Below, in pieces: positions 18,449 through 58,900 of a stretch of 64,000 nucleotides of DNA. The translations under genes and the position numbers were made by a program. The notes beneath the pieces are model-generated. The model had not been told where the DNA came from and did no database searches. It saw nothing but the letters and a program-made list of their open reading frames with translations. Positions within the stretch are counted from its first letter, which is position 1. Every line of letters begins with the position of its first letter. The stretch is taken from NCBI GenBank assembly GCA_024195265.1, contig JAJLRJ010000004.1, positions 1,373,125-1,437,124 of the forward strand, in the 5' to 3' direction. This stretch comes from Dendrophyllia cribrosa (Eukaryota > Cnidaria > Anthozoa > Scleractinia > Dendrophylliidae).

Positions 18449-18484
18449 CGCTCCGACGAAGGGCTAGCGCTCGAAACGTCAGCT
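18449..18484 (+). ncRNA. Hammerhead-like ribozyme motif in Penelope-like 3' UTR
   Basis: About 95 nt after the element's stop codon: GCT, then CCGACGA (one change from CUGANGA), a stem II GGGC-UAGC-GCUC, then GAAACGTC and AGC. GCT/AGC can form stem I and ACGU can form a 2-bp intermolecular stem III. The changed core base makes activity doubtful. Confidence 0.5.
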
Positions 18485-18599
18485 ATTTGAATCTTTTTAC
18501 GGTGGTCAATTTACCTTATCGACTCAGTCGATAAAACTAAATTCTCGTGTTTCATCCCCCCACCGACGCAGCACCACAGTTTCTCTAGAAACTAACCAC

Positions 18600-19775: not shown

Positions 19776-19879
19776 TCAGCTACTGAAATTTCCACCCAAT
19801 CGACTCTTTGAACCTGATTTCCTCCACGCTCCCTCCACGTGATTCCCTTCCTGTGTCATGTGAACCCGATCCAGGCCTA
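19776..19879 (-). pseudogene. Duplicated fragment of the LEKR1-like last exon
   Basis: Corresponds to 49,965-50,100 of the intact gene: the stop codon and preceding C-terminal codons are recognisable. About 32 bp (the bases coding for RQRIAAAV and neighbours) are deleted, which shifts the frame. Homology ends abruptly after GGCCTA, so this is the right breakpoint of copy A. The duplicated poly(A) signal at 19,703-19,708 is retained. Confidence 0.9.
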
Positions 19880-22401: not shown

Positions 22402-22487
22402 CTGAGAGGAATAAAAAAAGAAGGAAAAACTCAGTGTAGACCTCAAGTGAGGAAAGAAAAGTAAGGAATTGAACATTATGATTTATC

Positions 22488-22499: not shown

Positions 22500-22634
22500 G
22501 CATGCGCGGCCTCGTCGGAAGCGGCCACATGTTTTCTGACTGAGAGGTCTTTGGCCCTCCTTCGCCTCAAAATTGTTTAAAAATTGGTCAAGCTTTGTTC
22601 AAAACAATGGAATAAGATCTCTTTACAGAAACAA

Positions 22635-23519
22635 ATGTCTAAAAAGAACAAACGTGGAGATAGAGGCTCCTTTGAAGAAGAAACCAGTCTAGCCAAAAAA
22701 TCCAATATGGCGGAGTCGGACGAAGGAAACAGCTCGCTGGCTGAAAAAGAACCTTCTCTTCTAGAAATCAAACATATTCTTATCAATATACAAGCTACAA
22801 TAGCGGATATTAAAAAGGAGAACCGAAACCTAAAGAAGGAATTAGACGCTTTGAAGAACTCAATGTCATTTAACGAGAAAGAACTCCAAGGAATTAAAGA
22901 CTCCCTGAAGAATACAGCTAAAGCTAACACATCGTTAACTGAAGAATTAACCAAAACCAGAAATGAGCTCCAGTCTACTAAGCAAGATCTCGAACAGGAA
23001 AAGGAGGAAACTTTTAAAGCTTGGTGTGCATTTGATAACCTCGAGCAGTATACCCGCAAAAACTCTTTAGAAATACACGGAATACCTGAAAACGCTTACT
23101 CTGACACGGAAGCCGCGGTTATTAAAGTTGCGAACGCCCTCCAGGTAAACTTACAGCCTGATGACATCGAAATATCACATAAACTTAAAGGAAAGGAAGG
23201 TAAGAGGCCGATCATGGCTAAATTCTGTAGTCACAAGACGAAGTCAAAGTTATACAAAGAGCGTACCAAACTTCGTAGTGTCAAAATCACAGATATATTC
23301 CCTTCCTATGCACTAGCCATGGAATCTAACCAAGACCGGATTTACATCAATGAAAATCTAACATCTTACAGGAGAGAAGTACTGAAGGAAGCGAATAATC
23401 GAAAGAAAAATAAATCACTAATAAGCGTCTGGACACTAGACGGGAAGATCTACGCCAAAGCTTCGCCAACTGGAGACCGATTTCGTATTTCCTCCATAGA
23501 AGACCTAAATAGCATTTAA
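22635..23519 (+). CDS. LINE ORF1 protein (coiled coil, L1-type RNA-binding)
   Basis: The first ATG gives MSKKNKRGDRGSFEEE and 294 residues. Residues about 40-140 form a long heptad-rich coiled coil. A globular part follows, including NLEQYTRKNSLEIHGIPE, KLKGKEGKRPIMAKF and the L1 ORF1p RRM/C-terminal-like end. This protein coats the element's RNA in L1-type retrotransposition. The reading frame is intact. ORF2 begins 465 bp downstream. Confidence 0.88.
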   Translation: MSKKNKRGDRGSFEEETSLAKKSNMAESDEGNSSLAEKEPSLLEIKHILINIQATIADIKKENRNLKKELDALKNSMSFNEKELQGIKDSLKNTAKANTSLTEELTKTRNELQSTKQDLEQEKEETFKAWCAFDNLEQYTRKNSLEIHGIPENAYSDTEAAVIKVANALQVNLQPDDIEISHKLKGKEGKRPIMAKFCSHKTKSKLYKERTKLRSVKITDIFPSYALAMESNQDRIYINENLTSYRREVLKEANNRKKNKSLISVWTLDGKIYAKASPTGDRFRISSIEDLNSI

Positions 23520-23983
23520 TATTTCCACCTAAAGTTTCTGTCGCTGAAGGAAGACTCGGCCGATTTGAGGTTTAGTTTAGACATTATTTAGATAAGAATG
23601 TTTTCTTGTCTCATGTTTTTCCTTTTTTTCCTCAGCATGCTTTATCCAAATTTTACTTATTATTTAGCTGTTTGTTCTTCACTGTGTGTGTGTGTACGAT
23701 TAATAATACGCAATCGTAACTACGAATACTTTACTTTTATTTGCTACTTTAATTCGAATCTGTTTTATTTACAAAAACGCTTTGCTTTCGTTCTTGCATT
23801 CCATGATATTTACCATAATGCTCAATTTCTTCTAATTTTTCAGAATGATGTTCTGTGTTCTCTCCAAAATATATATTTTAGTGAAAAAAATTCTAATTCA
23901 CAAGAAAATCTTCGAAGTTTACCTAAAAACACTAATCTATATTTACCCTTTGCAAATATGCAAAACGACTCTTCGAATAAGAA

Positions 23984-26900
23984 ATGACGACACCTTTTAA
24001 AGCTTCTTTTTGTTCGTTAAATGTCAGAGGTCTAAACCAAACACGCAAACGAAGACAACTCTTCAGGTGGCTGCATAACAATAAGTTTGATATAATATTC
24101 CTTCAGGAAACCTACTCAACAAAAAATATAGAAAACATATGGAAATCTGAATGGGGCGGCAAAGTCTATTTTAGCCACGGCACAAATCACTCGAGAGGTG
24201 TCATGATACTTTTTAACCCTAAATTGGATACCTTGGCTGACAACATTGAAACGGACAAAAATGGACGTTATTTGCTTCTTCAGGCAACCATTCACGACTT
24301 TTCTTTCCAATTGTGTAACATCTATAGTCCCAACAATAACTGCGATCAAAAAGTGTTTTTTTCAAATATTATTGATGTCATTAAAAAGCGTCCGAACAAC
24401 AACTTTATAATCGGAGGTGACTTTAATTGCGCGCTAACACCTCGCGACAAAATAGGTGGCGCGGCCATAGAAAGGAAAAACAATGTAATTAGCGAAATTA
24501 CTAAATTACGCGACTCGTTTAAACTGCAGGACATTTGGAGGTGTCAGCACTCTGATCAAGTGCAATTCACATGGCGGGACAAAGCGCTAAAAGTACAATG
24601 TAGATTAGACTATTGGTTAATCTCTAAGGAGCTTTCACATATCGTCTTAAACACGGAGATAAAAGCATCAACACTATCAGACCATTCTGCAATAACTTTA
24701 ACACTGCAGTCCGAGGGTTATGCAAAAAGAGGACCCGGTTTTTGGAAATTTAACAAATCACTTCTTGACGATAACACCTTTATAGAACAACTTCAGAGCA
24801 CTATTCCCGTTTTTAAAAAGAAACACAATTATCTCACTGACAAAGGCCTTTACTGGGATATGATCAAAATGGAAGTAAGAGGCTTTTGTGTGCAATACTC
24901 AAAAAGAAAAAATAGAAAGCGTAGAAACAGAGAGAAAGAACTTTCTAATCAAATTGACGCCTTAATGAAAGTACTCGCGACAAACAGGTCAAAAGAGAAT
25001 ATTACTAAACTGTACAGCCTTAGGACAAAACTTAACAAGATCGCTGAGCACAGAACCAATGGCGCCATTATAAGAAGTAGAACAAGGTGGCACGAGCAAG
25101 GCGAAAAGAATACGAAGTATTTCCTAAACTTAGAGAAACGGCAAACCTCTAAAACCTTCATTTCTAAACTCAAGTCACAAGATTGACACGAAATAACAGA
25201 TTCAAACGAAATTTTAAACTGTCAAAAACTGTTTTACAAAAACCTGTATACGGCAGTACCCCGCAACAGCTTAAATGACAAGTTATTTTTTGAAAATCCA
25301 AGCCTCCCTAAACTAAACGATATTGAGCTGGAGGTGCTTGATAGACCACTCACAAACCAAGAATGTTTCGAAACTCTTAAAATATGCGCCAAAGACAAAT
25401 GTCCAGGCAGTGATGGATTCACCGTTGAATTTTATTTACTTTTCTGGCCTATACTAGGAGAAGAAATGGTTCAAAGCTTTAACCACGCTTTAACCCACGG
25501 ACATCTTAACATTACACAACGGCAAGGAATTATCAAAGTTGTGCCAAAAAAACGTAAAAACAAGTTGTATTTAGAAAACTGGAGGCCAATATCCTTATTA
25601 AATATTGACTACAAAATATTATCCAAGACCATTGCAAGTAGAATTAGCAATGTTCTTCCCCAACTTATACACGGAGACCAAACTGGATACGTGAAGGGTA
25701 GATACATTGGACAAAATATCAGATTAATACAAGATATAATGAAAATAACTTCACTGGAAAACCAACCCGGTATGGCAATCTTCGTCGATTTCAAGAAAGC
25801 CTTTGATTCGGTAAATTGGGATTTTTTAGCCAAGGTATTAGAAGCATTTAATTTTGGCCCACAAATTCGAAAATGGATAAACGTACTTTACACGGATATC
25901 ACCAGCTGTGTCATTAACAACGGGTACGCCTCGGAATTTTTTTCACTCCGAAGAGGAGTTAGACAAGGTTGCCCATTATCCGGTATCCTCTTTGTTCTCT
26001 GCGCAGAAATTCTAGCACATGCAATCAGAAATGATAAGAATATTAAAGGGATACAAATCTATAACAAAGAATATAAAGTATCTCAATACGCCGATGATAC
26101 TACAGCTTTCGTTGCCGATGCAGTGTCGGCACGAAATTTGTTTAAAGTGCTACGCGCATTCCAAGAGACGTCGGGCCTGAAAATAAATACGTCAAAAACC
26201 GAAGGGATGTGGCTTGGATCCTGCAGGCATAACACATCAACTCCTTTTGATATAGCTTGGCCTTCAGAGCCGATATACGCCCTGGGAATTTATTTCCCCT
26301 ACGATGAGGTTACCGTCTTTAAAAAGAATTTTGAAGAAAAGCTAAATTCGATGAAGAATATCTTAAATCTTTGGAAAACAAGAAATCTCCACGGCCGTAT
26401 AATCATTCTCAAAAGCCTCGCTCTCTCCAAGCTTGTCTACAACACATCCGTACTCTCCTTCCCACCGGAATTTATATCCACAGTTAAGTCTGCTATATCA
26501 CAATTTGTTTGGAATACCCTTCCTAAAATCAAACACAATACAATGATTGGCCCTAAAATAAAAGGAGGTTTAGACATGCCGGATTTTGAAATAATTAATA
26601 ATGCCTTGAAGGTAACCTGGATAAAAAGGTTGTATGAAAGCAGCAATGATGCGATTTGGAGCCACATTCCCCTTGCTCTTTTAAAGCGGGTAGGTGGGAT
26701 TTTTCTTTTCAAGTGTAATTATGACCTAAAATCCCTTAAATTAGAACTTCCTATACAATTTTATAGAGACGCGTTAAGTATCTGGCAGATGATAAACCAA
26801 CAAACTCCTGAAAATAAAGAACAGGTGTTAAACGAAATCCTGTGGAACAACCGGTTTATTAAAATCAATGGATACTCAGTCTATTACAAAAATTGGTACA

Positions 26901-27667
26901 ATGCAGGAGTGATCAGGATCAAAGATATTTTTTATGATAACGACTTTTTGACTTTCAATGATTTTTGCCGCACATTCCAAGTCAAAACCAATTTCTTGAC
27001 ATATTATGGCCTATGTAACGCTATTCCCAAAAACTGGATCCGCCTTTTGAAGCAACCCAACTTAAATGGTACCCAAGAGCCTGATGTGGAGAAAATTCCG
27101 TTAAACGTGCTTTCATGTAAAGTGGCTGCTAAATTTCTAATTGAACAGAAATTCATACCCCCTACAGCAGAACAAAGAATGATACAAGCAAATTTTAATA
27201 GGCAAACGATACAAACCATTTACAGTATTCCTTTTAGTGTGACAAAGGATATTAGACTCGCTATATTCCAATTCAAAATTATACACCACATCTTGCCAAC
27301 TAATGCAACTCTATTCAGAGATAAGATAATTCAATATGACAATTGTCATCTTTGTGATGAAAAACAGACTTTAAAACATCTTTTTGTTCTATGCCCAGAC
27401 GTTCAAGTCTTTTGGGAAACTTTCTGCAACTGGTGGAACGTAAAGAATGACGATTTTATCGTTTTAAATGAGCATATTATCATTTACGGCTACACAAATA
27501 ACTTCAGAAAATACCTTGGTTTAAACCTCTGCTTAATAATCGCCAAATATTACATTTACTACGCTTCTAAAGAGAAAGATCCCTACTACTTTGAAGCTTT
27601 CCTTGTCTTTCTAAAGAGCAAATTATCCATCGAGAAAAGCAAAGCCAAATCGCAAATTAATTCTTAA
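23984..27667 (+). pseudogene. LINE ORF2: AP endonuclease + reverse transcriptase, one in-frame stop
   Basis: 1,227 codons in one frame, interrupted only by TGA at 25,184-25,186. The endonuclease shows FCSLNVRGLNQ, FLQETY, IGGDFNCAL, LDYWLIS and SDHSAITL. The RT shows VPKKRKNKLYLENWRPISLL, FVDFKKAFDSVNW, RRGVRQGCPLSGILF and the catalytic QYADDTTAF. The C-terminus has a CHLCDE...HLFVLC zinc-knuckle-like motif. The sequence after the TGA (HEITDSNEILNCQ) continues seamlessly, so a single substitution explains the break. No frameshifts were seen. Best fit is an L1-clade/Tx1-like element. Confidence 0.92.
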
Positions 27668-28734: not shown

Positions 28735-28865
28735 TTAAAACGTGAATAAAATTGTACATAATAAACAAAAAGAATGTAAAAAGTGTCAATGATTTACATC
28801 ACAAGCTTTTCAGACAAAGCCCTTCATCAGTGTGGTGACCTTTATATTTTCACGCGTGATTTTAA
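28735..28865 (-). mobile_element. Penelope/retrozyme-like 3' end remnant with hammerhead-like core
   Basis: The minus strand holds CTGATGA (28,824-28,830), a short stem II region, then GAAAAGCTT (28,803-28,811), the same arrangement as the other hammerhead-like motifs here. AAGCTT is palindromic, but the following base is G, which would not be cleavable. No coding remnant is visible. Confidence 0.4.
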
Positions 28866-29213
28866 TTGCGCACACTAAGTTCACAGGAAATGAAAAGTAT
28901 TGTTTAGGCCCATATGTTGCATGGTGCCGGGTCTAAAATTACTTTTCTTTTCCAGGTGTTTCCTGCGGCGATTTGGGCCCTACAGAGTTGCAAGCCTGTG
29001 CGAAGATTTTTTTAAGAACATTTTTATTCATAAAAAAGTTTTATTTTCTCGATAAAACTCGACCTTGTCGACCCGGCGTTTATTTGAACCCGGCCCAACG
29101 TTTACTCGAGAAAGTACAATATTTACAGCGGTCTTACCCAAAGCGATATAAAAGGAGTCACCTCAAGGAATAAATTATCACTTCGAGAATGAAGTTGTTC
29201 GTTCAACTCGATC

Positions 29214-29420: not shown

Positions 29421-29489
29421 CTCCGGAGCAGAGGTTGGTTTTTCGTGGCAATTGTTTTTCACGTTTCCTTGCTCTTCCTAGTGTTTTTG

Positions 29490-30165
29490 TTAGTTACAGG
29501 GACGCAAATTGCTAAATTACTCGTTCCCTGGTATTTTATGGTTGTGGCTCCAGAGCAGAAGTTATTTACGGCATTTGGCATTTACCTGACTCTGTCGAGC
29601 GTTTTGTTTGTTACAGGGACGCAAATTGGTAAATTACTCGTTCCCTGGTATTTTATAGTTGTGGCTCCAGAGCAGAAGTTATTTACGGCATTTGGCATTT
29701 ACCTGACTCTGTCGAGCGTTTTGTTAGTTACGGGGACGTAAATTGTTAAATTACTCGTTCCCTGGTATTTTATAGTTGTGGCTCCAGAGCAGGAGTTATT
29801 TACGGCATTTGGTATTTACCTGGCTCTGTCGAGCGTTTTGTTAGTTACAGGGACATAAATTGCTAAATTACTCGTTCCCTGGTATTTTATGGTTGTGGCT
29901 CCAGAGCAGAAGTTATTTACGGCATTTGGTATTTTCCTGACTCTGTGGAGCGTCTTTTTTTGTCAGTTACAGGGACATAAATTGCTAAATTACTCGTTCC
30001 CTGGTATTTTATGGTTGTGGCTCCAGAGCAGAAGTTATTTACGGCATTTGGTATTTACCTGGCTCTGTCGAGCGTTTTCTTAGTTACAGGGACGCAAATT
30101 GCTAAATTACTCGTTCCCTGGTATTGTATTGTTTGTGGCTCCAGAGCAGAAGTGTTTATTACGGT
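29490..30165. repeat. ~119-bp tandem repeat, six copies
   Basis: Unit start TTACAGGGACGCAAATTGCT or variants at about 29,494, 29,613, 29,735, 29,853, 29,972 and 30,088 (spacing 116-122 bp). Each unit includes GTTGTGGCTCCAGAGCAGAA. Long ORFs across this array are by-products of the repeat. It occupies the body of the DIRS-like element. Confidence 0.92.
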
Positions 30166-32030: not shown

Positions 32031-32442
32031 TTAAAAAATTAGAAGATCCGTCCTGAAAAAAAAAACAAACGTTATAACGGTAGGCCTTAAGGCTTTTCGA
32101 TTTACTAAAGTAACGTTTTCACCATTTTTTTTTTTTATTGCAAGCTGGAAGTTTCCAGAGATTTCGCAGTGTATAAATAAATGCTCAAAGGATTCGTTTG
32201 ACTTTCCACAAAAATTGCAGTGCACAGAGGCAAAGGAACTACAGTATACCTATTTTGAAAAGAGCTTTATTTGTGTACACAATTCGATTTAAAAATTTAT
32301 ACTGGAATTCTCTAGTTATTGAGTGAAGGGTTTCACTTCTGGGGAGACTGAGATAAATTTCCTGGCATGCTAAATCAGTTGTTGAGGCGCGTATCATTTT
32401 AAGGGCACGAAATAAAATTAGAAGTACAGCGGACTTTCGCAT
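32031..32442 (-). mobile_element. LINE RT C-terminal fragment (copy B)
   Basis: Twin of 1-305. Here the zinc-knuckle-like end is also visible (HCNFCGKSNESFEHLFIHC), confirming the LINE identity of both fragments. It lies just left of the EGF exon of copy B. Confidence 0.75.
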
Positions 32443-33209
32443 TCTTCTGTCAAAGTTTCATTGCCGTATTATTTGTTGACATTTGTTTTACGTATACTTC
32501 AGGACTTTCTCTTTTGTCCACAATTCTACATATTTGTGCGCTTTTGAATAAACAAGTTTACCATGCTTTCAACACAAACCCACATTTAAAGGCGTCATCA
32601 GCGTGGCCGCAGCGTTATGTATGAAAAGAATTTTCCCGATCGCTTCGGCAGCTGCGAAGCATAGCAAGCCGTCCAAACTTACAAGTACTTGCGAGTCAAT
32701 TTGCCCCTCCGTTTGCCTACCCAGCCCAATTCAACGCAAGTTGTCACTTTTACTTTCAAGGGCTTTAACTTAATGGTAGGCATTTTTTGCCTGACTTTAA
32801 CCATTGTAGAAATTTACCTGTTTCACAGTGATCCCCTTCAGAGCCTGGGGAACAAATGCATCGATATCCTTTGGAGCTGAACCCAGCTTGACATGTGGCG
32901 TTATTCAAACAGGGGCTGCTTTGACATAAATTCTGTTAATGAAAATAGATCAGCTAAAAATTATTCTCTCCAGTCTGTGTAATATATACGACATTACTAA
33001 ACCAAATATTACTAAGGACTTGTATGGTGTTAGCAAATATAAAAGTCCTGGCCTTGGAAAAAGTAAGACACTAGCTCTCTAGTCTCAGTTTTATTTCATT
33101 AAGCAGAAAACAAATATGTATTTTGTCAAAATGCACTTTATGGTTATATATAATAAAATGATGATTTGTTCTGCTCAGTAATCACAGCGACAGATTCAGG
33201 GTAGCTAAC

Positions 33210-33210
<1 letters not shown>

Positions 33211-33242
<32 letters not shown>
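33211..33242. repeat. Poly(C) tract
   Basis: About 32 C in a row, longer than its copy A counterpart at 1,063-1,087. Further C runs lie at 33,519-33,535 and 33,982-34,009 in the same intron. Confidence 0.9.
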
Positions 33243-33243
<1 letters not shown>

Positions 33244-35010
33244 CCGACCGATCTCACCATTTCTTTTTTTTTTTCAGCCTCTAACATTTTCACTTGCCTC
33301 ACCCCACCCGAATCCCCCGTCCCACTATTCAACAGGGAGCCCCAGAGTACGTTGTCTCACGGTGCTCCACAGCTACGCTTGTTAAACTTGTAAACCTTGT
33401 AACTTATCACGAAAAAAAAAATATTTTTAAGATATTTGAAGCAAACTTTTTAACTACAAGAGCATATCTCAAAAGGGTCTACGCCATACGCCAACAAATT
33501 TGCAATCCGACATAACCCCTCCCCCCCCCCCCCCACCCCTCCCCACCGTCTTCCTTGTACGTCCAAGGGTTAAAAGATTGACAGAAATATATTGAAAATT
33601 TACAGTCGGCTTTTTACTTTAAAGATCAAGTAACAATCGATTTAACTTAAAATATAAATGGCAGAAAAATGCGACGCATGAGGATTTAGTATGTAAATAA
33701 GAAATTTCTGGCGACTTCTCTCGCAACCTAAAATCAGAGATTGGCAACAAAACAATAAACATTCTAAACTCCTCAAGCGTTTAAAATAATTGAAAGAAAG
33801 AAATCACAAATTCATAATCGATTTTTGACTTTGAAGGTCAAATAACAAGCAATTCATACTTTCAACATAAATGGCGGGGAAACGCACGCCTGGCTTCTTG
33901 CTAAAAAAAATTAAAGGCTGCTATGAGCCAACTCGTTAATACGAAACGCTCTAAATAAAAGATTCTGCACACATTCGGACCTCCCCCCCCCCCCCCCCCC
34001 CCCCCCCTTCCATTACCCTTTTGTGATAATTTATCGCACCACTGACCACTGGAGCTTTATTTTTCGGTTTGTTATCATACAATATAATTTTTTGATTTTT
34101 AAAATGAAACCAAATCCCCGTAATACTTCCCCTTTAAGTCTTATTAAAATAATTTTACTTTATTTTAATTAGCTTTGTTTTAGTGTCCTTAATTTAGTAT
34201 TGTGATGTACTAGAATTTTATGACACTTAAACACGAAGATGCACTATAAAAGGAGCGTACCTTAGGCAGTTAGGTACGTCAGAATCAATTGTCAATCAAC
34301 CGCCGTTGCGTACCGACCTCTGTGAAAATTTGTGGAGAATAAAGACATCTATTGAGCAATCTGTCTGTGTGGTTTACTTGCCTTTGTTTGTACTAGTCGC
34401 TTTTGGCAGACCCCATAATGTTTTCAACACAATAGAAGAATTTGTTAAGGTTTGGAATTCCTTTGAGAATTTTGAACTTTTATGAAATTAGTTCACTCGA
34501 GCTGAAACAGGGGCGGAGCTATTCCTTTTATAGCGCGTCTTCGTGTTCAAATAAAGGTTTCATCATCATCATCATCATCATCAACTGCTACAACTTGTTC
34601 AACGCTTTGGATATTCACGAGTTAAAAATGATTACTCTTTTTTTGACAGTATAATTATCTCATTCTAAGTTGTGTTTCTTACCAAAATATGTCGGTAGAT
34701 ATAACCTTGCTTTGATACAAAATCGCCACTTAGGACTTGCAAATGCATGCGATCGTTGAGCTTGCATAATGGTGCTTCACTCCCTGTAGGTCCGTAATTG
34801 TAAGACACACAGTTGGGTTCTTGATAGCAGCGCAGCTCACATTTGTCTTTGTTTGGAACTTGCATACTTTTGATCGCGTGATTTTCGAGAACCTTGTCTT
34901 TGGTTTGAGGTGTGAACTGTATCGTTCTGCATCCATCTAAAGCTGCAATTTGAGCTACGAAAAACATTATTTGAATAGGTTTGTACACTTCTCTGAGTAA
35001 GTCAACTGGC

Positions 35011-35106
35011 AGTCTCCTACGCAGCCGTTTTCTGTGTCGTCACGCAAAGCTTCTCCCGTTGGAGGAGCGTTGCGTGACGACACAAATGACGGCTGCGCAG
35101 GAGGCT
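35011..35106. mobile_element. Foldback element (copy B)
   Basis: Counterpart of 2,894-2,991 with the same arms (CGTCACGCAAAGCTTCTCC loop side, GCGTGACGACACAAATGACG). It was present before the duplication. Confidence 0.8.
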
Positions 35107-35280
35107 ACGATATAACGGACTCTCGCTTTCATGGACACCAAATCCAGTCGCGTAATAACTTGTTGGTGTTTTGATATCCTAAAGGAACACCTTTGCGAGT
35201 GTTTGATATATAACTTAAAAAAAAAAAAAATTGTGCCCATCAAATGAAAGGTCTTCAATAACACAGTCCCCATATATAGG

Positions 35281-37169: not shown

Positions 37170-37760
37170 AAGAACTAATAAAGCAAGGCTGACTGTACAA
37201 CTGGGATTATAATATTCTTTCCAATATTTCGTCAGGCACAGCCTGACTTCTTCAGGGAATAAAATGACTACAAGAAAAACGTTACAATATAAATCGCCAA
37301 GAAACAAAAGGATATAAGATTACAATGGAGAGACGTTAGATTTCAAAAATATAAGATGAAACATTACAATTAAAATTGAAGAGAAACAATAGAATATAAG
37401 ATAACAAGATAAAAATAATGAAAGACGATGTGTAAAATATATAAATGCGAAGTTTACACTTATTCACGCTTGTTGGGAATGTGTTTGCCATTTTCTACTA
37501 TTTTCTTCGATTCTTTCTCGACTTCTAGTTCTGTATCTCGATCAATAATTGTTGTTTGTTATTTCGTATTTTTGAGTGTTCGATACGAGGGTTTTAAAGA
37601 TCCGGTGTTCGACTAATGATAGCTCATATGATGGCGCTTGTAATTTGGTCCGTCAAATATGCGGGGACATGTCCGACATTTATTTTAAGTTTGAAACTGT
37701 CACGCAAATGTTCCCTAAGACACACAAACATAGTTTTCATAACATATAAGACTTAAGCTT
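37170..37760 (-). mobile_element. Degenerate Penelope-like 3' end with hammerhead motif
   Basis: The minus strand has REHLRDSFKLKINVGHVP, the end of a GIY-YIG domain, and, after frameshifts and stops, IDRDTELEVEKESKKIVENG (37,430-37,760). These are C-terminal features of Penelope-like proteins. The hammerhead motif at 37,219-37,259 lies downstream, as in the other two Penelope-like copies here. Confidence 0.55.
37219..37259 (-). ncRNA. Hammerhead ribozyme motif, all stems formed
   Basis: Minus strand: TTCC (stem I), CTGAAGA, stem II GTCAGGC-TGT-GCCTGAC with seven perfect pairs, GAA, palindrome ATAT (stem III by dimerisation), cleavage base T, then GGAA closing stem I. The core matches the CUGANGA...GAAA consensus exactly. 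This is the best-folded example in the window. Confidence 0.7.
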
Positions 37761-39194: not shown

Positions 39195-39980
39195 TTTAGA
39201 TTTTCTTTTTTACACTTAAAAATTTATTGAAAATAAAATTCTAAGTGTCGACATTACGTTATATAAGTCTCAATGGGCCTTTATCACGCGGCGGCCATGT
39301 TGATTCCCAGGAGAACAACATGCTTTGTTTTCCCCTGCTTAACCTCGTTCTCAACTTTTTCACTGCGAGGCTTGGGGGGTAAATCTTTTGTTTTTATACA
39401 AAATGGCGGGGTGTGATAAAAGCCCATGAGGTCTCCGAAGTCCTTTAGGCACAACCGCGCGGCGGGCGGTACACGCGCCCGCGAAACATTCCGCTAACCA
39501 TGACCATGAAAAATGACGAGCATAGGTTTAGTTCTATGAGTATGGGGCTCCGCGCGGGCCTTCGGCCCACAGAGCTCCGCTAAAAACAGACTAGATATAG
39601 TAATTATCACGTAGCTTTTTAATAAACCGACTCAAGGTCAAACCTATCTAAGTTCAAACACTTGAAAGCAGTTTCCTCTCTATCTTTTAGGTTCCTGTGG
39701 GGCCTTGAAGGATTTTTGTTAATTGAGCGTTTGAAATCTTGGATTTTATATTCATAAATTGAAGTTTTTCAGCTTGTGTCGCTAAAAACCGATTATGGTT
39801 GAATTTCCCTTCGAAACGTCACTTCATAATCTTCCGCTTGGTGCTCTATAGTCATTTCAAATTTGACATCACATACAAAGTTTGGTAAACTCTTAATCTT
39901 TGAAACTTTTATTTCAAAAACACTTAAAAACAGAATTTTCTAGAACTTTCTAGAACAGGCGTAAAAAATTGACGGAGAAT
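39195..39980. other. Non-coding, no gene seen
   Basis: Lies between the tRNA-like repeat and the first Harbinger derivative. A palindromic GC-rich patch (GCGGGCCTTCGGCCCAC near 39,554) is the only structure noticed. Confidence 0.4.
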
Positions 39981-39982
39981 AA

Positions 39983-40923: not shown

Positions 40924-41099
40924 TAAAAGTGAATTGCAAAGTAGCCCGATTTAAAACAGTTTTCATTTGTTCATCGTTTCATTAAAGGAATTCGGCGAAA
41001 TGAGTTCGTGAGCGGTCCATCTTAAGCGGTCCGTATTGTAAAATTCAGACCTCTCAGGGAACCAATCAGAAGAATGCTCCTTTCCATCTTGGACCTAAT

Positions 41100-41470
41100 T
41101 AGGGAGCTTGTTATGCTTTTACAATTGCACAACACCATTACATTGTCATGTTTTTTTTACTTTTAAGCTTTATTTTTAGTTTATTATGTAACTTGTCAGC
41201 TTTACTCTATTACGTAACTTTTCTATACTTTTGTTATGTTAGAAGAAGAATTATTATATATTAAGGAACTTATTTCTGTAAGAATTTTTATTCCAAGTAT
41301 TTTTGATCCTGGAAATAAGCACTGAAGAAGCCCGATGGGCGAAACGTCTGCCATTAAACTTCAGAACCTGTGAAGAGTTCGCTCTCGCTTTTGTTCACAC
41401 AATTTATATATATATATTTTTTGTAACTTGGTTCTTTTGTTTAATAAAATGTACAAATTACAAAAAAAAA
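41100..41470 (+). mobile_element. Retroelement 3' end with hammerhead motif and poly(A)
   Basis: Ends in TTTAATAAAATG, about 20 bases and an A-rich tail (41,460-41,470). The hammerhead-like motif is at 41,319-41,351. No protein-coding remnant was found within it, so it could be a Penelope-like 3' end or a non-autonomous retrozyme-like element. Confidence 0.5.
41319..41351 (+). ncRNA. Hammerhead-like ribozyme motif
   Basis: GCA, CTGAAGA, stem II GCCC-GAT-GGGC (perfect), GAAACGTC, TGC. GCA/TGC close stem I. ACGU is the minimal palindromic stem III and C is a valid cleavage base. Confidence 0.6.
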
Positions 41471-41502
41471 ATCTTGGACCAGTTTGCCATATAATAAATA
41501 AT

Positions 41503-43844: not shown

Positions 43845-43891
43845 GAACAGCTGATGAGGTTCACCTTAGAACCGAAACTCGAGTCTTGCTT
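43845..43891 (+). ncRNA. Hammerhead ribozyme motif with 8-nt palindromic stem III
   Basis: CTGATGA (43,851-43,857), stem II GGTTC-ACCTTA-GAACC (five perfect pairs), GAA, then the palindrome ACTCGAGT (43,877-43,884) and C, a legal cleavage position. Stem I (GAACAG / TTGCTT) is weak, with one mismatch. The core is a perfect match to consensus. Confidence 0.65.
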
Positions 43892-46658: not shown

Positions 46659-47359
46659 ATGTAAACGCGGAACAAAGTGATCGCTGCTTAGTAATACACT
46701 GAACGGTGCAAAACTAACCGACAAAAGACAAAAGATCATGACAACAATTTACAGTTGGGAGAAACCGAAACACGTACCAACCCAACTCTAATTCCAAGGC
46801 CTGGCTCAGCGCCCGGGATGCGAAGATGTTTTTGACTTGAATCAATAACATTTCCCTACATCCGCGAGGCCAGACTAATGTTTTTTTCAACCGATGCATA
46901 CTCTTAGACGAGTTGCTGCATGTTTCGTGGAGGAGGCGGGAAACACAAGTTAATGATTTCGTTTTCGCCGGGTTTTACTTAATTCAGCCCAGCTTATGTA
47001 ACCCTGGTTCTCGAGAATGCGGAAGAGAGGTTATTTCTTGGTTTCGCTGAAACTGATTGTTGGTTACTGTAGAGCTTATCCAGCGGAATATAGTGTTTTG
47101 TGTCGAAATTGTACTGTGCGCATAGACTGTCTGTAGCGTCTTATTTTTCTTTAAAGGCCCTGCAGTATTTTTCATTATACTTCACGCGCCTGTGTTATTT
47201 TGGTTTGCACAGGAGCGAGGCTTCTATTGTTTGGAGGCACGTGAAGCATAATGGACAATACTGGGTCTTCGACTTAGACGAGCCAGCACGCGATCTACGC
47301 GCGGTGAGCGGCGAAGCCGCGAGGAACGAGGGCGCAAGCGCACGAAAAAGTAAACGTAA

Positions 47360-48300
47360 AGGTGGATTTCCACTGTCGCGTAAAAATTTACGTACGTAAA
47401 ACGTGCGTTAAAAAAACTTACGTTACCAATTTCCACTGTTGCGTAAAAAATAATAAAAAACGTTTCCGTTTTACGTACGTTAAACGTTCGTAAATACCTG
47501 CCATCCTGAAATTTTGGCGCGAAAAGGTTATTTGCCGCTAAAGTAATGGCCGCCGTTATAAACAAGCGGTTCTTTCTCCTGTTGTACCTTAGACAGAGAC
47601 GAAAAAGACGACAAAAATATCGGAAAAGATTTCGGATCAGAGAGCTATTTCAAAATCGGTTTCAAGTGGGGGAATACCACACTCTAGTGCAAGAAATGCG
47701 CGAAAATGACCACGAGTCATTTTATAAATACTTCCGGATGACACCTGAAAGATTTGACCACCTTCTTTCTCTTGTGGGACCGATGCTGTCTAAGAAATCC
47801 TTGTATCGTGAGCCAATCAGTCCCGGTGAACGTCTCGCTGTTACTCTTCGATTTCTAGCTACTGGTGATTCCTTACAGACGATATCATTTAGCTACCGCC
47901 TTGGCCATACAACCGTGAGTAGAATAATTCCTGAGGTGTGCGATGCATTGTGGATTGCATTACAGGAATATGTAAAGCAGATAAAACAAAATGGCGTCTA
48001 CATGGAGTTGGTGTCATGTGACAAAATCCGAAATTGCCATTGGTTAAATCGCCGCGTAAACGCAGACATCCGCGAAAAAGTTGAACCCAGTTCAACTTTT
48101 CCGAAAACGCTCGCGAGGGCTACGTGCCTTTACGTGCGTATAACGTACGTAAAAACCTAGAAAAAAACGCGGCACTGGAAATTGGACAACGTAAAGTCAA
48201 CGCACGTAGTTACGCGCGTAAAATTTCATTTTTACGTACGTTAAAAATTTTTACGTACGTTAACGTGCGTAGGCAAAAACGCGACAGTGGAAATCCACCT
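47360..48300 (+). mobile_element. 941-bp PIF/Harbinger derivative, copy 2
   Basis: The same 22-bp TIRs and length as 39,983-40,923. The left flank is TAA and the right flank TTA, so the target duplication is imperfect here. Copy A carries a related empty site (GTAAACGTAAGC at 8,227-8,238). Confidence 0.93.
47546..48160 (+). CDS. Truncated Harbinger transposase, copy 2
   Basis: The protein is identical in sequence and length (204 codons) to the ORF at 40,169-40,783; the one base difference within it is silent. It has the same N-terminal DNA-binding region and the same loss of the DDE core. Confidence 0.85.
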   Translation: MAAVINKRFFLLLYLRQRRKRRQKYRKRFRIRELFQNRFQVGEYHTLVQEMRENDHESFYKYFRMTPERFDHLLSLVGPMLSKKSLYREPISPGERLAVTLRFLATGDSLQTISFSYRLGHTTVSRIIPEVCDALWIALQEYVKQIKQNGVYMELVSCDKIRNCHWLNRRVNADIREKVEPSSTFPKTLARATCLYVRITYVKT

Positions 48301-48677
48301 TTAGCCTGTTCCGCGCGGCTTCGCCGCTCATAGATCGAGCGCTCCCTCGAATGACTTATAGAAAAGAAGAGAATGCTCGCAGTGTACCGTGCGCAGAGTG
48401 AATCGCAATCACGATTGAAGTCAAGTAGAAATCACAACATAATACTGGTACATAAGCACTTGGCTGATTTTTCTTTCAAAGTACAAATTCTTTATTTTTT
48501 CTTGTTTTATTGATCATCCATGCACCTACCACAAACAGCTGTTTTGCTATCTTCAAACTTAAAAATATGTACACTGTAATTTCTCTTATTTATAAAAAGC
48601 TTGTTGTCGTTCTCGATGTATTCTAACACCATATTTACAATATATACATCGACATAGCTACTCTTCGACGTCTGCAT

Positions 48678-49964: not shown

Positions 49965-52900
49965 TCAGCTACTGAAATTTCCACCCAATCGACTCTTAGA
50001 GCCTGATTTCCGAACAGCTGCTGCTATTCGCTGCCGGCTGTCGTCTACGCTCCCTCCACGTGATTTCCTCTCTGTGTCATGTGAACCCGATCCAGGCCTA
50101 TAACCCACGCCGCCATCAAAGCCAACGGGGCAGGAAGTGGCCTGGGAGCCTGAAGTGTCGCTAAGTCCATTTGAGGCCAGTCCCTTAGTACTCCCTCTGC
50201 TAAGGCTGCCAGAGGAAGTAGAACTTGATGAGTTGAGAACGTTGCTTCTTGAAAACGAGGCACCGGAAGTACGTTGAAGAGCTAAAAGTTGAGCCCGCGC
50301 TTCACCCAGTGCATCGGTCAGCTCCAGCCGCTCCTCACACTCGCGTCGAACTGTTTCTTGTAAAAACGCGACCTGCAAAAGACACGCGTGTTGGTGTCAG
50401 CTACCCATGCTCCAGTACATGCTGATTTACACAAATAGCGGTATCGCTGTTAGGGACTTTCAGATTGTATTACGACAAAGACTTTATCAAATTGACCAGG
50501 CACACTAGTTTGGTGGTTGAAATTCAAACATATGCACCTGCTCAATACTCAGTCTTAAGCATCCGTATTTTTGGTACACAAAAGGTGTATAACAGTGGTA
50601 GAAATCAAATCATGCGCAACTCTAGACTACGAGCAGTCTCTTTTTCCCAGCTTAGTCCGTCGAGCGAGAGACGAAAAAACATTAGCGAGCGGATATTGCC
50701 CGCGTGAAACTGGGGGCGAGGCAGGCGCACATTATCCACTCGCTAATGTTTTTTCGTTTCTCGCTCGACGGACTAAGCTGGGAAAGAGAGACTGCTCGTA
50801 GTCTAGTGCAACTCACGCTCCAAATACAGTAACAACAATGCTAATCATACCCTGGGTAGCTGAGATGTTTCTCAACTTTTTTCTGACAGTGAAACACTTT
50901 GTAATGGAATACAAGTCGCATCTTACCTCTTGCCTCCACGATTCCTTTTTAGTTTCCAGTTCTCCAATTTGCTTTTCGGCTTCCTCCAGCATTTTATCCG
51001 ACTCCTGAAGCTTGTGCCTTAATTTGGCAACTTCTTCCGCTGATTCTAATGAGGGCTGGCGCATGCGGTTTTCCATGTCCGCGATTTTTGCCTCCAGATT
51101 TTGTATGATTGAATTACTAGGGTATCTTGACTGTTCGCTTTTGCCCTAAAAAAATCCTCCTATTAGTTATCATGCAAACTAAGCTTTGGAATGATGTTAA
51201 GTTTATTGACTGTGACCCTCACTGGTACACATGTAGAGTTAAAGAGACCCTTCACATCAGACTTGACCCCAACAACATCAATAGGGATAACGGAAGTGTG
51301 GATGCAAACGATCAAGAAACACTACAGCCAATCGGTACCATCATGGACCTACGAGGGAACAGATTCTAATCGGAATAACGAGGATCCCAATCCACCAATC
51401 ATAAACAACCACTGTGATTTATAGTGTTAAACATCCAGTCGACTCCATCACCTGATGAGGATCAGCTTTAAGCAGTAGAAACGTCGCGATTCACATCTAA
51501 AGTGACCACATTGTGAGACAAACGATAAAGAAAGCTATCATTTAACAAATCGAGCGCATTTTTTCATGGTCTGTACTCTTATTGACCATAGAAATGACGT
51601 CATAAAATGTTCAAAACACTCAAGTGGAACCACGAGCCGTTAGGCGAGTGGTTTCACTGCCAAGTTTTGAACATTTTGCATTTTGAGTTTGCGGGAATCA
51701 TTTGAGAAAATGAAGATAAACAACTTCACTGACAAACTGCTGCAAAAATTAAAGCCTTAACTTTTTATGTGAATATATTATGTAACGGAAAAGGCTCACA
51801 CAAAAATTCTCTTCAGCTTAAATCATCGCTACAATCTTTTAATATTAACACAACACAACAAATAGCCGTTATCCAGCAAATTTTAGAGAATCGCTCGCGG
51901 CGATAATCGCAAAATAGAGCACAAAGTCAAACATAAAATTACTAGGCACAGTTTACAAAGCTAACGTTTTTCAAATTTGAAATGTCTTCGAATAATCTGA
52001 CGAATCTTTGCTCCAAGTTGTTTTCAAATTAGTTTTAGTTCTTTTGGACGCCGGCGACGCGCATTTCCCTTTCGTAAACGGTCGTTGCCATTTTAGCGAC
52101 ACTTAGAAAAATTTTCACCAATTTTAGAATTATTTTTTCTATCAGAAAAAGAAAAATGGAATATAATTACCTGGAATCGAACCCGGAACCTCTGCATGCT
52201 AACATCTCTCTCTTACCACTAGACCACTGGGTTGTTCCGGCAAACGCAAGAAAAATTTAATTATAAAAGGTGCTTTTCTTAATATATATCAATAACGGGT
52301 CACCCTAACCCTAAATCTTACCTAACCGTGAATCTAGCTTAGATCTAATAATCGCTTTACCTAGGCCCAATTTGATCTAATAATGATAGCCTATTTTCGT
52401 CCCAATCCAGGCATAAACTAGAGAGAAATAGCATCGACCATTACAAAAAGGCTTGGTTACTAATGAATGCTAATGATGGCATCGACCGTTAAAAATGGCA
52501 TCGACCGTTTGCTAATAATGGCATCGACCGTTAAAAATGGCATCGACCGTTTACGAAAGGGAAATCAGCGCCGGCGACTGATTCCATGGATTTTTCCGTG
52601 AAACTACGACAAATTCTTTGTCCTGTTTGCTTCGCACTAATTAATTCCAGGCAAGTTTAGCTGATTGTAACTAAATTAAACTGACGAGAAAGCATTCTTC
52701 TCATTGAAGCTTAGAATTCCAGTTTTAAGTGCACTTTTCACTGTTTGAAGAACCCGCAGCGCCAAAAGTTTGTCAAAACTCACCGCGTTGCGTTACCTGT
52801 TACGTCATTTTCATGGTCTATACTCTTATCGACCACAGAAATGAGCCAATCAGCGCGCGTGAATTCACACAATTATTGTAAAAAATGTAATGTACTTTTA

Positions 52901-55900
52901 AATATATTGTACACAGAACAGCATGCATATAGCACCACTTACTTTAGCTTCATTTGCAGCTTGCTCCAGGCGCTTGACTTCTTCACGGTGTTTGCGGTTC
53001 AGTGCAGTGATATCCTCTCTAAACTAAAAGTTGGGAAAAGAAGAAGAAAAAGAAAGAAAAACAAGCTATTGGTGGATTGCACGGCGGCCATTTTGGATGA
53101 CAGAAAAATGAAATTTCCATCCTTTGGGAATAAAACCATGATTTATATTGTTTCTGTGATCTAATGTGGCCGCCGTTCAAACCACCAATAATGGAAACTG
53201 CAGGCCGGGGAAGTCTCTGTGAGCCGCAGAAATAAATCTCACAGTTGTTTGTATTTCTGTATCATTTAGTCACAAAGGATAGAGCTACTGTGTACAGCGT
53301 GCATTGGATTGGTGGCGCTTAATCTCCTCACTTCAGATTCTCGTGGTTACGTAGCCTGCGAAGCAGGCATCGGGGAGAGGGAAACTGGGAAGAGAGGAAA
53401 AGGACGCCTGCAGTTAAGACCCCTTTTGTTCATTTCTGAGGACGCTGGTAAATTCGCCAGTTTATGATTGATGAACGTATTGACAGTTGACGTAATTCGA
53501 TTACAAGGAAATCGGTGGGCGTAATACGAATAGCCCGGTTCTTATAGCAGGCGTTCTTTCCCTTCTCCCTATCTCCTTTTTTGCGCCCCATCCCCCCTCC
53601 CCGTTTACGCCTGCCACGCAGGCTTGCGATTACATAAAAAGAGACTGCAAAACACTTTGTACTTTTGCGCATTTCCACCAAAAAGCGGTGAATGCTAAGG
53701 CGGCCGAGGTGTGCATTTTGAACAGTTGGACTGGCGAGAGACGCTAGTGACTAGAATCGGTACTTGGATGGATGGATGGCCTTTATTTCAAAACGATAAG
53801 TATTAAAGCTGTATGAGCTTGTGGGGTCGTTTACAATTAACTAAAAACTTAAAAACTAGGTATATACAAAAATAACGTTTGGACTAAAAAATAAGCGATG
53901 CTTACAAATATTTAGTGTCAACAGCCCTTCCTCGTGCGTTTTAAGGGGTAATTCAATGCCCACCGTTTTGCAATCTAAAGAAACGAGGGACAGGGATCAA
54001 AATTCCTAACCAGCAAAACACGTGGAGAAAACTAGTTGAGACCGAAAAACAACGCGTTGAAAGAATAACGCGCGCATATTGAAAGTTTTACGGGACTCGT
54101 GTTTTCCTTTGCAAGATATTCTTTTGTATTTTATTTAGATTTTGGTATCTTGAATAAATAACTTGCACGTACTTTGTCCTGGGCAGCCTTGGCTTCCTTC
54201 TTCCATAAAGCGAGTTCTGCGATATGTTTCTGCTGTTCCTCGTCCATCTCCTTTGAATTTGACAAGGAAAGGTGAAATAACTAGAGGGTATAAATTACAG
54301 CAACCTTGTGGCCTAATACACAGTAATTACAATAAAACATCGTGACAATCCACAATTGACGAACGGGCGGTGGGGGGAGGGGTGAGAGGGATACCTTTTG
54401 AAATGCATGAGTTAGCTCCTTCCACATGTTGTTTTTCTCGTCATTAAACTGTGCTTCTTTTTCCTTCACGATCTGATCAAGCTACAACAAAGAATAAAAC
54501 AAACAAAAACAAAAAAACAAATGATTCAACGTCTGTTTGCGCGAAAAAACAATCTCACTCACACTGACACAAGGCTACACACAGCCCTATTTCAATTTAC
54601 GTTGCACTGTACATTGTTGTTCGGCCAGACTTACCTTCCCAGGCCATGCATCTGCTTCTTCCATCTTCTTTTTGAAGCTCTCTCTCAGCTGCTCGATGCG
54701 ATTATGGTGCGCAGAAATGATCATCTCTCTGAAAAAATAAACAAAGTTCATTAAGGATTTCTCAGGACAAACTCAGTGCCAACAAATAAATCGAGTTGTG
54801 AAGCGATAAGCGTGGGAATGTAAAGTCAGCTTGTGAGCTCTTGGATCTGAGGGAAAAAAAGGGTAACTTCTTGCAGTCTATGACAGTCACTGCATCGTTT
54901 TTTGTCAAACGTGATTGTGGCCCTCCCTTTCCATTCTAGTTAAAGGACGACATACAAATCCAACCCTTACCCCTCCCCCTCTCTCCCCTGCAGTTCCCGC
55001 GGGTACATGAAGTAGGCCTTTCTTTGCATTGGCATAGTAAAAAAGTTGAACGGTATGAGTGAGTGAAATTTGTGATCCTCAATATACAAGTCAATGGAAA
55101 GTGTTTCTTCTGGCATCCAGCAATCTACACCGATCTTTAGCAATCTCTCAATCCAACCACATCAAAATAAAAGCATTACGATTAGAAAATGCATATTTAA
55201 CCTGTAGTAAACACGAACATGTAAATATAAACTACAGTACCTTTCCTCTTTTAGACCTGTCACTTCACTTTTTGCTTTCATTAAAGATTCCTTTAAAGCC
55301 TACGTGTCGATAAAAAAATAGAAAAGGAAAACTCTTCAAGCAAAAGCTTTCAATATTTCAGTGAAGCAACACTGATTTTAAAAGCCAACAAGTCATTGTT
55401 AGTTTTATGCTCTCTGAGGCAGGCAAACAAAAATATGGACACCTTAAGTTCGTCACTAATGCACTAATCAGTCACTCATATTTGATATTGTAACTACACG
55501 CAAGTCTCTCTCTTAAGGTGAACAACTAAATTGGTCTTTATCACATTCTTCAGTCACTCATTTTACTGTAACAGTTATTGCATTCACTCTCTATAAGATG
55601 GGCACCTAAATTGGTCTTATTACACTTATCACTCATTTTACTTTACTGTACACTGTAAACTCTCTATAAGATGGGCACCTAATTTGGTCTTATTACACTT
55701 ATCACTCATTTTACTTTACTGTACACTGTAAACTCTCTATAAGATGGGCACCTAATTTGGTCTTATTACACTTATCACTCATTTTACTTTACTGTACACT
55801 GTAAACTCTCTATAAGATGGACACCTAAATTGGTCTTATTACACTTATCACTCATTTTACTTTACTGTACACTGTAAACTCTCTATAAGATGGACACCTC

Positions 55901-58900
55901 TCTAAGTGGTGAATAAAGTGTATTATAACATGACCTACATGTATGAAAAACCCCACAGTCGGTCGGTCCCGTAAGCGAACACCCTCGGGTCCAAGGGTAA
56001 GTGTCTGCTTACGGGAGGTGTCCGCTTACGGGAGGTTTAAAAAAAAAATGCACTAGAGGGCGTATAATGCACCAGTACATGTCTTTGAAAGCTTTTAAAG
56101 GGGAACTGTCCCGCCTAAACAGAAAAATTTCACTTAGCTTATTTCCACATTATGTCGCCAAATAACAACAAATGACACCAAATATAAAGTTGGATAAAAC
56201 GATTATACAGAGCAAAACAAAAGTAGTAATTTGGAGATAATTAAAAAAAAAGAGTGCAGGATTGCAAGGATTGAAGTGGATTTCAGTTCATGCACACAAA
56301 CCACACACTACCCACAATTCCTTGATTCGCTCCGACGAAGGGCTAGCGCTCGAAATGTCAGCTATTTGAATCTTTTTACGGTGGTCAATTTACCTTATCG
56401 ACTCAGTCGATAAAACTAAATTCTCGTGGTTCAGTTCATGCAGTTTGGTTTATTGACTTCAATAAATCAAACTTGCCATTCTTGTGAAATTTTCACTTTT
56501 CTAGCCCTTATTTTGTTTGTTTAGTTCATATTTCTTTGCCTCTATCGCTTTTACCAATGGTTTCTTCCTATTTCAAGATAATAAAGTAAGCTTAAACCAA
56601 GCTCCTGGCCATAGACATAAACATGATATTTCAGCCAGGACAGTGTTCCTTTAAGATCACTTGCAATTCTATTATCTATCATAGGGTTGTTGGATGTTGC
56701 TTTTATTTATATTACACATACATGTAAATTTAACACTAATTTAAAAACTACAATTCAATATTGAAAGACTTGCCGCTAAACATATGTACATAATTTTATC
56801 TATGAAGCTCTCGTCTTGCCATCACATGAACTCATTTAAAAACAGTGACATACTCAATCCCCAAGGGGGGTACTCCCATATACAGGGATTCTGACAGGGT
56901 GCGCGGGTGCGGGACCGCACAATTCGGTCAAACCCGCACAATCCCGCACAATACTGAAATATTTGCTAAAAATTTTAATTAAATTAGGTATTTCTATTGA
57001 TTACCAAGATTTCGAGAAACGTTTTAGGCTATTTTCAGTCCATTTTCCTTCCAAACAATCGAGAAATCCCTCGCTTTCCTCGAACAGCTCGAGCGATCAA
57101 TATAAAAACAACAAGGCGTTCTCTTCGCCGTCCTGGGAACTAGTCTCAGTTTTACTTCTATCCGACTTCCTACCGAATTTTTCGCGTAGCTTTTTAGTTG
57201 TCGTTTTCCAGACATTATGTCGTTTTTCTTAGCAGCCTGTCGATATTTTATCGAGCGCTTTCGCTTCCTCTTTCAGTTTAATATGTTGGGGACCGAAGAA
57301 GAAACACCGAAGAAATGTACCGTCGCGCCGAAATGAAATGTCACTCTGTCTAAATTAATTTCGCAAAGAACTGATCAAGTTTGCGAATCGACAAACAAAC
57401 TATTAAAGCGCTGGAACTTCGGATTAATAGGAGAAAATTATTAAGTTCTGAATGATCAGAATACTGGATTTGATTTTTTCAATCAAGTGAAAGACGTTTT
57501 CATTCAGGAAAATGCAAAAAAACATGCTATCAAATTACATTTAGCACGCGATTTGCATACATCTCAAGGTTCTGTTTTTGCGGCAAACTTTCGAAGAAAT
57601 TGTGTGAACCTTTAATGGAAATTATTCACACTTCATAAAATGTACGGAATTTTTAATAAAGGAACTCGCTCAGATCGGAAACATTTTATTTTGAGTGGTA
57701 TTTCGGTTTTACCCGATCGAGTTCATCGTGTCACGCAATGTGGTTTTGTTGAGACAAATAAACTTTGGTGAAGAAAAACAGCCGCAAATTGGCGATTGCT
57801 GGTACATTTTGATCCCCAAAGTAAAACATCTATTTGTATTTTTCATTTATGCAGAATTTCCTCCCTGTCATATTTTTCTGGCCTGGCTAGAACACTGGTG
57901 ATTGAATATTTGGTTGGTCACAGGATTGCGCAATCCCGCACAATTTCCCGCACAATCGAAGAAATTTACCGCACAATTTGCCCCAAAACTCCCGCACAAT
58001 TTTAGTTTTTTTCCCGCACCCTGTCAGAATCCCTGCATATAAAAATGATGGGGATTCTCGTCGTACCTTTTAGGGGTCAAAGTTTGCAGATTGGTACCGC
58101 TTAGGGTACTTAAATCTAAAGCGACCACAGTTAGAATTATCGCGGTACCTTTTAGGGTATAAAGCCAAAAACATATGACAGAATGTGACATGTGTTGTTT
58201 TGAATTGGTACCTCTTAGGGGTAAAAAAATCATTTGAGTCACACCCATCAAACAAGATTCTGGTACCTTTTAGGGTGTTTTTCAAAAATTTCCGATGAGC
58301 ACCCCCAACATTTTCATATACGTAGGAATCCCCCCTCCCCCCCGGGGACTCAATCCCCCATGTTTCAAAGGTGAATAGAACAGAAGACGTACATGTTTTG
58401 TGCCATTGCATGTTGTCATTTTCTAAAACTCAAAGTGCCCTAAAGTAGGTAAAAAGAAACTATCGATGCGTGTTTGCTTTCATGGTTCCCTGATCTTAAG
58501 GTTTTTCTTAAGATATAAAACACCTTGAGTAGTGTATTTGACTGGCTCAAGGAAAAGTTAAGAAAGGAAAACTTTGATGTACTGTGATGAAAAAAAAAGT
58601 TTATTGGAATCGAAATGACTACTTACCAACACATAACTGTACTGTTCAGACAGAAAACATTGCTTTTGTTTAGGTCATTTGCGATTAAACCATTAAAACC
58701 AAACCTATTTTGTTAGAAATGTTATCGATATAGTTTACTGTCTGCTTACGGGAGGTTATTATAGACCCTGTGGACCCTGAATAGGTGTCTGTGTCCACTT
58801 ACGGGAGGTTAAAAATGTAGTGTTGGGGAGGATAAATCGCCGGGACCACGGTTTGGTGTCTGCATATGGGAGGTGTCCACTTACGGGAGGTGTCCTTTAG

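Follow-up and report, generated by a model that had tools for sequence, protein, structure and literature searches.

The DNA analysed here is a 64,000-nucleotide stretch from the coral Dendrophyllia cribrosa (assembly GCA_024195265.1, contig JAJLRJ010000004.1, positions 1,373,125 to 1,437,124 of the forward strand; hereafter the window), and the subject is a set of short sequences resembling hammerhead ribozymes, which are considered together with the remnants of Penelope-like elements (PLEs) in the same DNA. A preliminary description had placed seven such sequences in the window by coordinate and strand, and all seven are present there. They are listed below, each with the two equivalent labels used in the text.

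18450..18483, plus strand (18,449 = 18,453): hammerhead-like motif with U4 to C in its core (CCGACGA); 4-bp stem II, stem III ACGU, C at position 17, stem I GCU/AGC
28803..28833, minus strand (28,803 = 28,830): degenerate hammerhead-like motif; CUGAUGA..GAAAAGCUU, G at position 17
37219..37259, minus strand (37,219 = 37,255): best hammerhead motif; stem I UUCC/GGAA, CUGAAGA plus A, 7-bp stem II, GAA, stem III AUAU, U at position 17
41319..41351, plus strand (41,319 = 41,322): hammerhead motif; stem I GCA/UGC, CUGAAGA plus A, stem II GCCC/GGGC, GAA, stem III ACGU, C at position 17
43848..43888, plus strand (43,845 = 43,851): hammerhead motif; CUGAUGA, stem II GGUUC/GAACC, GAA, 8-nt palindrome ACUCGAGU, C at position 17, weak stem I
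51447..51490, plus strand (51,447 = 51,452): degenerate hammerhead motif; CUGAUGA ... GAAACGUC, base of stem II unpaired
56329..56362, plus strand (56,328 = 56,332): hammerhead-like motif; core CCGACGA, stem III AUGU (a broken palindrome)

Motif integrity and Penelope-like remnants

The exact CUGANGA core, attributed earlier to five of the sites, is indeed found in five of seven, with 18,453 and 56,332 reading CCGACGA; position 17 is a base other than G in six, and both features coincide in four (37,255, 41,322, 43,851, and 51,452), the departures being U4 to C at 18,453 and 56,332 and G17 at 28,830. Five of the seven sites can be drawn with 4 bp or more in stem II and 3 bp or more in stem I; at 28,830 stem II has 4 bp, yet the base at position 17 is disallowed, and at 51,452 the base of stem II is absent. 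Stem III is a perfect palindrome in six sites (ACGU three times, AUAU, ACUCGAGU, and AAGCUU) and imperfect at 56,332 (AUGU). An extra A separates the CUGANGA position from stem II in five sites (18,453, 56,332, 28,830, 37,255, and 41,322) and is lacking at 43,851 and 51,452. The G17 assignment at 28,830 holds if stem III is AAGCUU, and the alternative with the extra A and stem III AGCU bulges stem I. By the rules known for hammerheads, a U4 to C change, a G at position 17, a broken palindrome, or a lost stem II should weaken or abolish cleavage. The sites 37,255, 41,322, and 43,851, which retain every core base, stem II, and a permitted position-17 base, look cleavage-competent from their sequence, and the other four look damaged. 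The defects in these four of seven (U4 to C at 18,453 and 56,332, the latter also having a broken palindrome; G17 at 28,830; an unpaired stem II base at 51,452) should impair cleavage, which at the first two has probably been lost through the C at the invariant U4.

PLE coding sequence was sought across the window with 139 PLE proteins, drawn from two lineages, as tblastn queries; matches with E ≤ 0.01 were taken as remnants, and three C-terminal pieces were found.

17254..18354, plus strand: 5'-truncated PLE open reading frame (ORF); C-terminal part of the reverse transcriptase (RT) region and GIY-YIG endonuclease; stop codon 18352-18354
28881..28979, minus strand: weak PLE C-terminal remnant; match 28,887-28,979, 45% over 31 residues, E = 0.004-0.005; stop codon 28883-28881
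51121..51424, plus strand: frameshifted C-terminal remnant of the second PLE lineage (GIY-YIG type); stop codon 51422-51424

Over positions 17,254-18,351 the first piece is 84% identical to protein P0003 (with PF00078 precomputed) and 75% identical to a Pocillopora meandrina protein; its GIY-YIG match has E = 0.00019 and 22.1 bits against a cut-off of 22.6, and the domain search gave no RVT_1 match in this piece. The relatives of the third piece, P0121-P0139, end like NNINRDSGIEIPEAW, and the GIY-YIG match of P0128 exceeds the Pfam cut-off. As had been described, three motifs (18,449, 28,803, and 51,447) lie just past PLE C-terminal remnants, that of 28,803 being weak, and the distance from stop codon to core on the same strand is 98 nt at 18,453, 50 nt at 28,830, and 27 nt at 51,452. 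The pattern C[CT]GANGA..GAAA thus occurs downstream of all three remnants at E ≤ 0.01, no more than 110 nt away and on their own strand, and is held by 390 of 20,000 random 110-nt stretches (2%). The same motif is read through in frame in the relative P0041 (PQFLYSLWRRANARNVSFLNL, 81% over 21 residues), so the motif follows this PLE ORF elsewhere too. P0041 has tryptophan where 18,453 and 56,332 would encode arginine (TGG versus CGA), that is, T at U4 and G at A6, and the C at U4 in the two window copies is likely derived, since the relative has T there.

Direct adjacency to PLE coding sequence is therefore seen at three of the seven sites, 56,332 being connected through its identity to 18,453, and the three best motifs are without it. 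When the flanks of all sites were compared (700 bp before and 400 bp after), the seven fell into six sequence families; the sole long flank match joined 18,449 and 56,328, and one 20-bp match between 18,449 and 41,319 (E = 0.002) was put down to chance. These six families agree with the earlier proposal that several lineages contributed minimal PLE-type hammerheads whose stem III is palindromic. The variety of palindromes, which had been called notable, is less so than supposed, because 16 hammerhead families occur in one coral genome, as far as the available text of that report goes (PMC7229834). A further tblastn match at 52,519-52,575 on the plus strand (E = 4e-5, P0015 residues 84-102) was rejected as a PLE remnant, as it lies inside a tandem array and is not C-terminal; it is perhaps a repeat fused into the P0015 gene model.

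Motif searches, predicted folds, and insertions

Three descriptors and a graded score were composed once the seven sites were known, so that they are partly fitted to them, and the shuffled sequences control composition only. The strict descriptor (exact CTGANGA with or without a further A, 4 bp or more in stem II, GAA, a perfect A...U palindrome of 4-8 nt as stem III, and position 17 not G) finds three sites in the window (41,322 and 43,851 on the plus strand and 37,255 on the minus strand) and none in 200 dinucleotide shuffles. The relaxed descriptor (C[CT]GANGA, one palindrome mismatch tolerated, 2 bp or more in stem I) adds 18,453 and 56,332 for a total of five, against a mean of 0.015 in 200 such shuffles. 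The loose descriptor is at background, with nine window sites against a mean of 6.6 and 52 of 200 shuffles reaching nine. On the graded score 37,255 (42.2), 43,851 (38.0), and 41,322 (35.2) rank first to third and are the only sites to exceed the highest score in 30 shuffles (34.2); the remaining four score 29.9, 28.4, 27.7, and 25.2 (ranks 4, 6, 9, and 15), with other window positions interleaved among them, and the score of 18,453 is attained in 8 of the 30 shuffles.

The count of seven is thus too generous on motif alone: three sites stand by themselves (37,255, 41,322, and 43,851), two more answer to the relaxed descriptor, and 28,830 and 51,452 are at background by motif. The pair 18,453 and 56,332 is accepted on relaxed motif, repeat copy, and PLE context, and 28,830 and 51,452 on PLE context; the latter two are read as decayed ribozymes, since PLE C-terminal remnants precede them despite their background scores. 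Another sequence, at 8,060 on the plus strand (CTGAAGA..GAAATATA, stem II of 3 bp), meets the loosest descriptor only and was dropped as a hammerhead because its graded score is at background. An alignment of four motif sequences placed stem II out of register. Pattern scans of viral contigs gave 0, 6, 0, and 0 loci, and a PLE protein search confirmed none of 15 stretches there; in prokaryote contigs 35 loci were found, with about 19 expected by chance from arithmetic with equal base frequencies. These 41 viral and prokaryote loci, preselected for the core pattern, contain 12 strict-descriptor sites if stem I is not demanded, one of these 12 having a 3-bp stem I, and all 12 are treated as chance.

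Monomer folds were computed for 37,255, 18,453, 56,332, 41,322, and 43,851. The two stems proposed earlier for 37,219 (stem I UUCC/GGAA and a seven-pair stem II) form well in the monomer, with pair probabilities of 0.86-1.0; the corresponding values are 0.75-0.98 at 18,453 and 0.68-0.88 at 56,332. The core GACG pairs with CGUC in the monomer fold of 18,453, which in this model would block the monomer. As a self-duplex, the 8-nt stem III palindrome of 43,851 is predicted at -10.7 kcal/mol and ACGU at -1.7, AUAU (1.6) and AUGU (2.6) being unfavourable alone.

Two of the motifs lie within short insertions.

56295..56429, plus strand: 135-bp insertion; hammerhead-bearing tail of the element at 18419-18554
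56282..56294, plus strand: left 13-bp flanking repeat (target-site duplication) TTCAGTTCATGCA
56430..56442, plus strand: right 13-bp flanking repeat (target-site duplication) TTCAGTTCATGCA
41086..41480 including repeats (insert 41,096-41,470), plus strand: insertion, about 375 bp long, that contains AATAAA and an A10 tail at 41462-41471
41086-41095 and 41471-41480, plus strand: 9-10-bp flanking repeat ATCTTGGACC around the 41,319 insertion

A single repeat is present at both 18,453 and 56,332 (98.5% identity over 136 bp), and 56,295-56,429 begins and ends within a few bases of where its homology to 18,419-18,554 does. Direct repeats of 13 bp occur at 292 of 4,000 random sites and at 274 of 20,000 random positions at 100-200 bp spacing, a background that probably stems from tandem arrays; the repeat at 56,328 is retained as a target-site duplication because it abuts the homology ends. 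A repeat of the 41,319 type was found at 1 of 29 A-runs of at least 8 and at 588 of 20,000 random positions; its position directly against the poly(A) run led to its retention, as moderate evidence of insertion. Direct repeats at 37,219 (11 bp) and 43,845 (10 bp) were rejected as target-site duplications, their like being found at 749 and 1,363 of 4,000 random sites, respectively. The nearly identical pair shows what appears to be fairly recent movement of one family. Both insertions (56,295-56,429 and 41,096-41,470) span both sides of the cleavage position, and their templates would therefore have been uncut there, or rejoined.

Origin and possible activity of the motifs

Taken together, the sites are very probably minimal type I hammerheads of Penelope-like retroelements, left in the window by several PLE lineages. 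Of the seven, three are good motifs, two belong to a single mobile family whose core is probably dead, and the remaining two are decayed; features of this kind are already known. We infer cleavage, dimer action, and processing in the following form. In an intact element the motif would sit in the pseudo-long terminal repeat (pseudo-LTR) immediately past the ORF; a single copy would be unable to close stem III, and two copies, in a tandem transcript or in two RNAs, would pair their palindromic stem III and be cut after position 17, so that a multimeric transcript might be trimmed to unit length. The 41,319 copy was inserted probably by machinery of the long interspersed nuclear element (LINE) type acting on a polyadenylated transcript, as its A10 tail and flanking repeat suggest.

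Several results weigh against a PLE origin or against the working of the motifs. The hammerhead-family check proposed in the preliminary description, carried as far as Rfam, gave no match at the gathering score or at E ≤ 10, an absence that says little because a known minimal PLE hammerhead was not run as a positive control. The graded scores of four of the seven sites lie inside the shuffle range, and stems I and II are rare in the monomer folds of 41,322 (0.12-0.15) and 43,851 (0.00-0.25). The 139 proteins of two lineages revealed no PLE coding remnant in the neighbourhood of 37,219, 41,319, or 43,845, and the 58-residue ORF preceding 43,845 has no relatives at E ≤ 1; the PLE origin of these three sites therefore rests on the motif. 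A weaker PLE-like match at 35,458-35,535 on the minus strand (E = 0.029, 26 aligned positions including a stop, close to the P0055 C-terminus) has no motif after it, so that the association would be three of four if it is a true remnant. Lastly, in the available part of the report on the Anolis PLE PAc, cleavage by its hammerhead is protein-dependent and catalytic mutants inserted in vitro regardless (PMC11167929), and a processing role is accordingly tentative.

The alternative that survives best is that all seven sites are dead fossils, incapable of cleavage at present, in DNA that has simply not decayed yet. Core or stem defects in four of the seven and the truncated or frameshifted state of the three PLE ORF pieces would fit such an account, but three sites keep the full core and both stems and the 98.5% pair points to fairly recent movement, and we regard it as possible but unlikely. 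It is improbable that 37,219, 41,319, and 43,845, where the motif occurs without detected PLE coding sequence, are non-autonomous retrozymes spreading via circular RNAs, as was suggested earlier for 41,319 and 43,845, even though retrozymes are recorded from corals in the available text of PMC7229834: tandem arrays (period up to 500) cover none of the sites, hammerhead-bearing units of 150-450 bp were not found in tandem, a second strict or relaxed motif is absent within 2 kb of any site, the three motifs have no stem III loops, and the poly(A)-tailed insertion at 41,319 fits a linear polyadenylated RNA and not a circle. In favour of chance alone, with a short degenerate motif picked out by eye from the AT-rich repeats of these 64 kb, the loose descriptor is near the shuffle level (9 versus 6.6), 28,830 and 51,452 rank 9 and 15, and the descriptors are post hoc. 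Against it, the strict descriptor gives three sites compared with none in 200 shuffles, which already tells against chance for those three, and the position past a PLE stop codon recurs in three of three remnants at E ≤ 0.01, or three of four counting the weaker match at 35,458-35,535; chance as the only source is scarcely credible.

A further proposal, which we consider doubtful, is that cleavage is dispensable for mobilisation in vivo, a PLE family with U4 to C still having been copied as a 135-bp tail and an uncut polyadenylated hammerhead RNA having been inserted. If true, this would agree with the PAc result in vitro, and copies that moved although their core is presumably dead offer a test, provided by nature, of whether insertion needs cleavage; otherwise, the locus holds ordinary additions to a group known in thousands.

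The surroundings are rich in other repeats. Several tandem arrays are present, with periods of about 64, 117, 73, and 113 bp at 12755-13555, 29485-30153, 55508-55899, and 59237-59694, respectively. A 945-bp pair (39,980-40,924 and 47,357-48,301) is 99.7% identical and has a 216-residue ORF in each copy, with no Pfam match for the ORF of the first; the pair is possibly a Harbinger-like DNA transposon that moved recently. An L1-like element at 22,581-27,664 encodes Exo_endo_phos and RVT_1 domains, its endonuclease and RT parts being separated by a single in-frame stop (25184-25186), and an ORF with a Baculo_FP-like match below the cut-off; it is a candidate for the type of machinery behind the insertion at 41,096-41,470 with its poly(A) tail. 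A duplication of about 3.1 kb links 3-3141 and 32148-35272 (93% identity), and the ORF at 35444-36343, with DUF3504 and Phage_integrase domains, is presumably a tyrosine recombinase, perhaps Crypton-like. If the genome of the coral Acropora millepora measures about 475 Mb, the motif count of that species (given below) corresponds to fewer than one per 64 kb, and the window is richer but was chosen for its motif.

Comparison with known systems

Minimal PLE hammerheads were reportedly described by Cervera and de la Pena in 2014 and by Lunse, Weinberg and Breaker in 2017. In the available portions of the reports cited here, PLEs bear minimal hammerheads without helix III (PMC6155905), which are located in pseudo-LTRs and in tandem with possible dimer cleavage (PMC6155905, PMC7761336) and whose role is described as unknown (PMC7761336), and palindromic stem III and dimer models are of older date (PMC3088659). 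In A. millepora more than 6,000 type I motifs form 16 families, and apart from 1,508 these motifs are of the minimal PLE/Terminon sort (PMC7229834).

On the same partial basis, Terminons share with the window a PLE-type hammerhead at the 3' end of the element (PMC6431247), but here no motif has a two-unit TTAGGG/CCCTAA repeat beside it (rotifer repeat units were not searched for), the sole such repeat in the window lying at 52,303, about 0.8 kb from 51,452. The metazoan non-LTR retrozymes resemble the present sites in their type I hammerhead, their occurrence in coral DNA, and, for three sites, the lack of coding sequence found, but theirs are tandem with canonical loop-loop hammerheads and those in the window are single minimal motifs (PMC7229834). 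In PAc the motif overlaps the start of the ORF (PMC11167929), whereas here motifs are seen after ORF ends only, in truncated copies. The closest likeness is to the minimal PLE hammerheads as far as they are described in these sources, with which the sites share the CUGANGA/GAA core, stem II, a very short or absent stem III, an adjacent GIY-YIG PLE ORF, and a proposed dimer action, the window differing in that four of its seven copies are damaged and that one stem III is an 8-nt palindrome.

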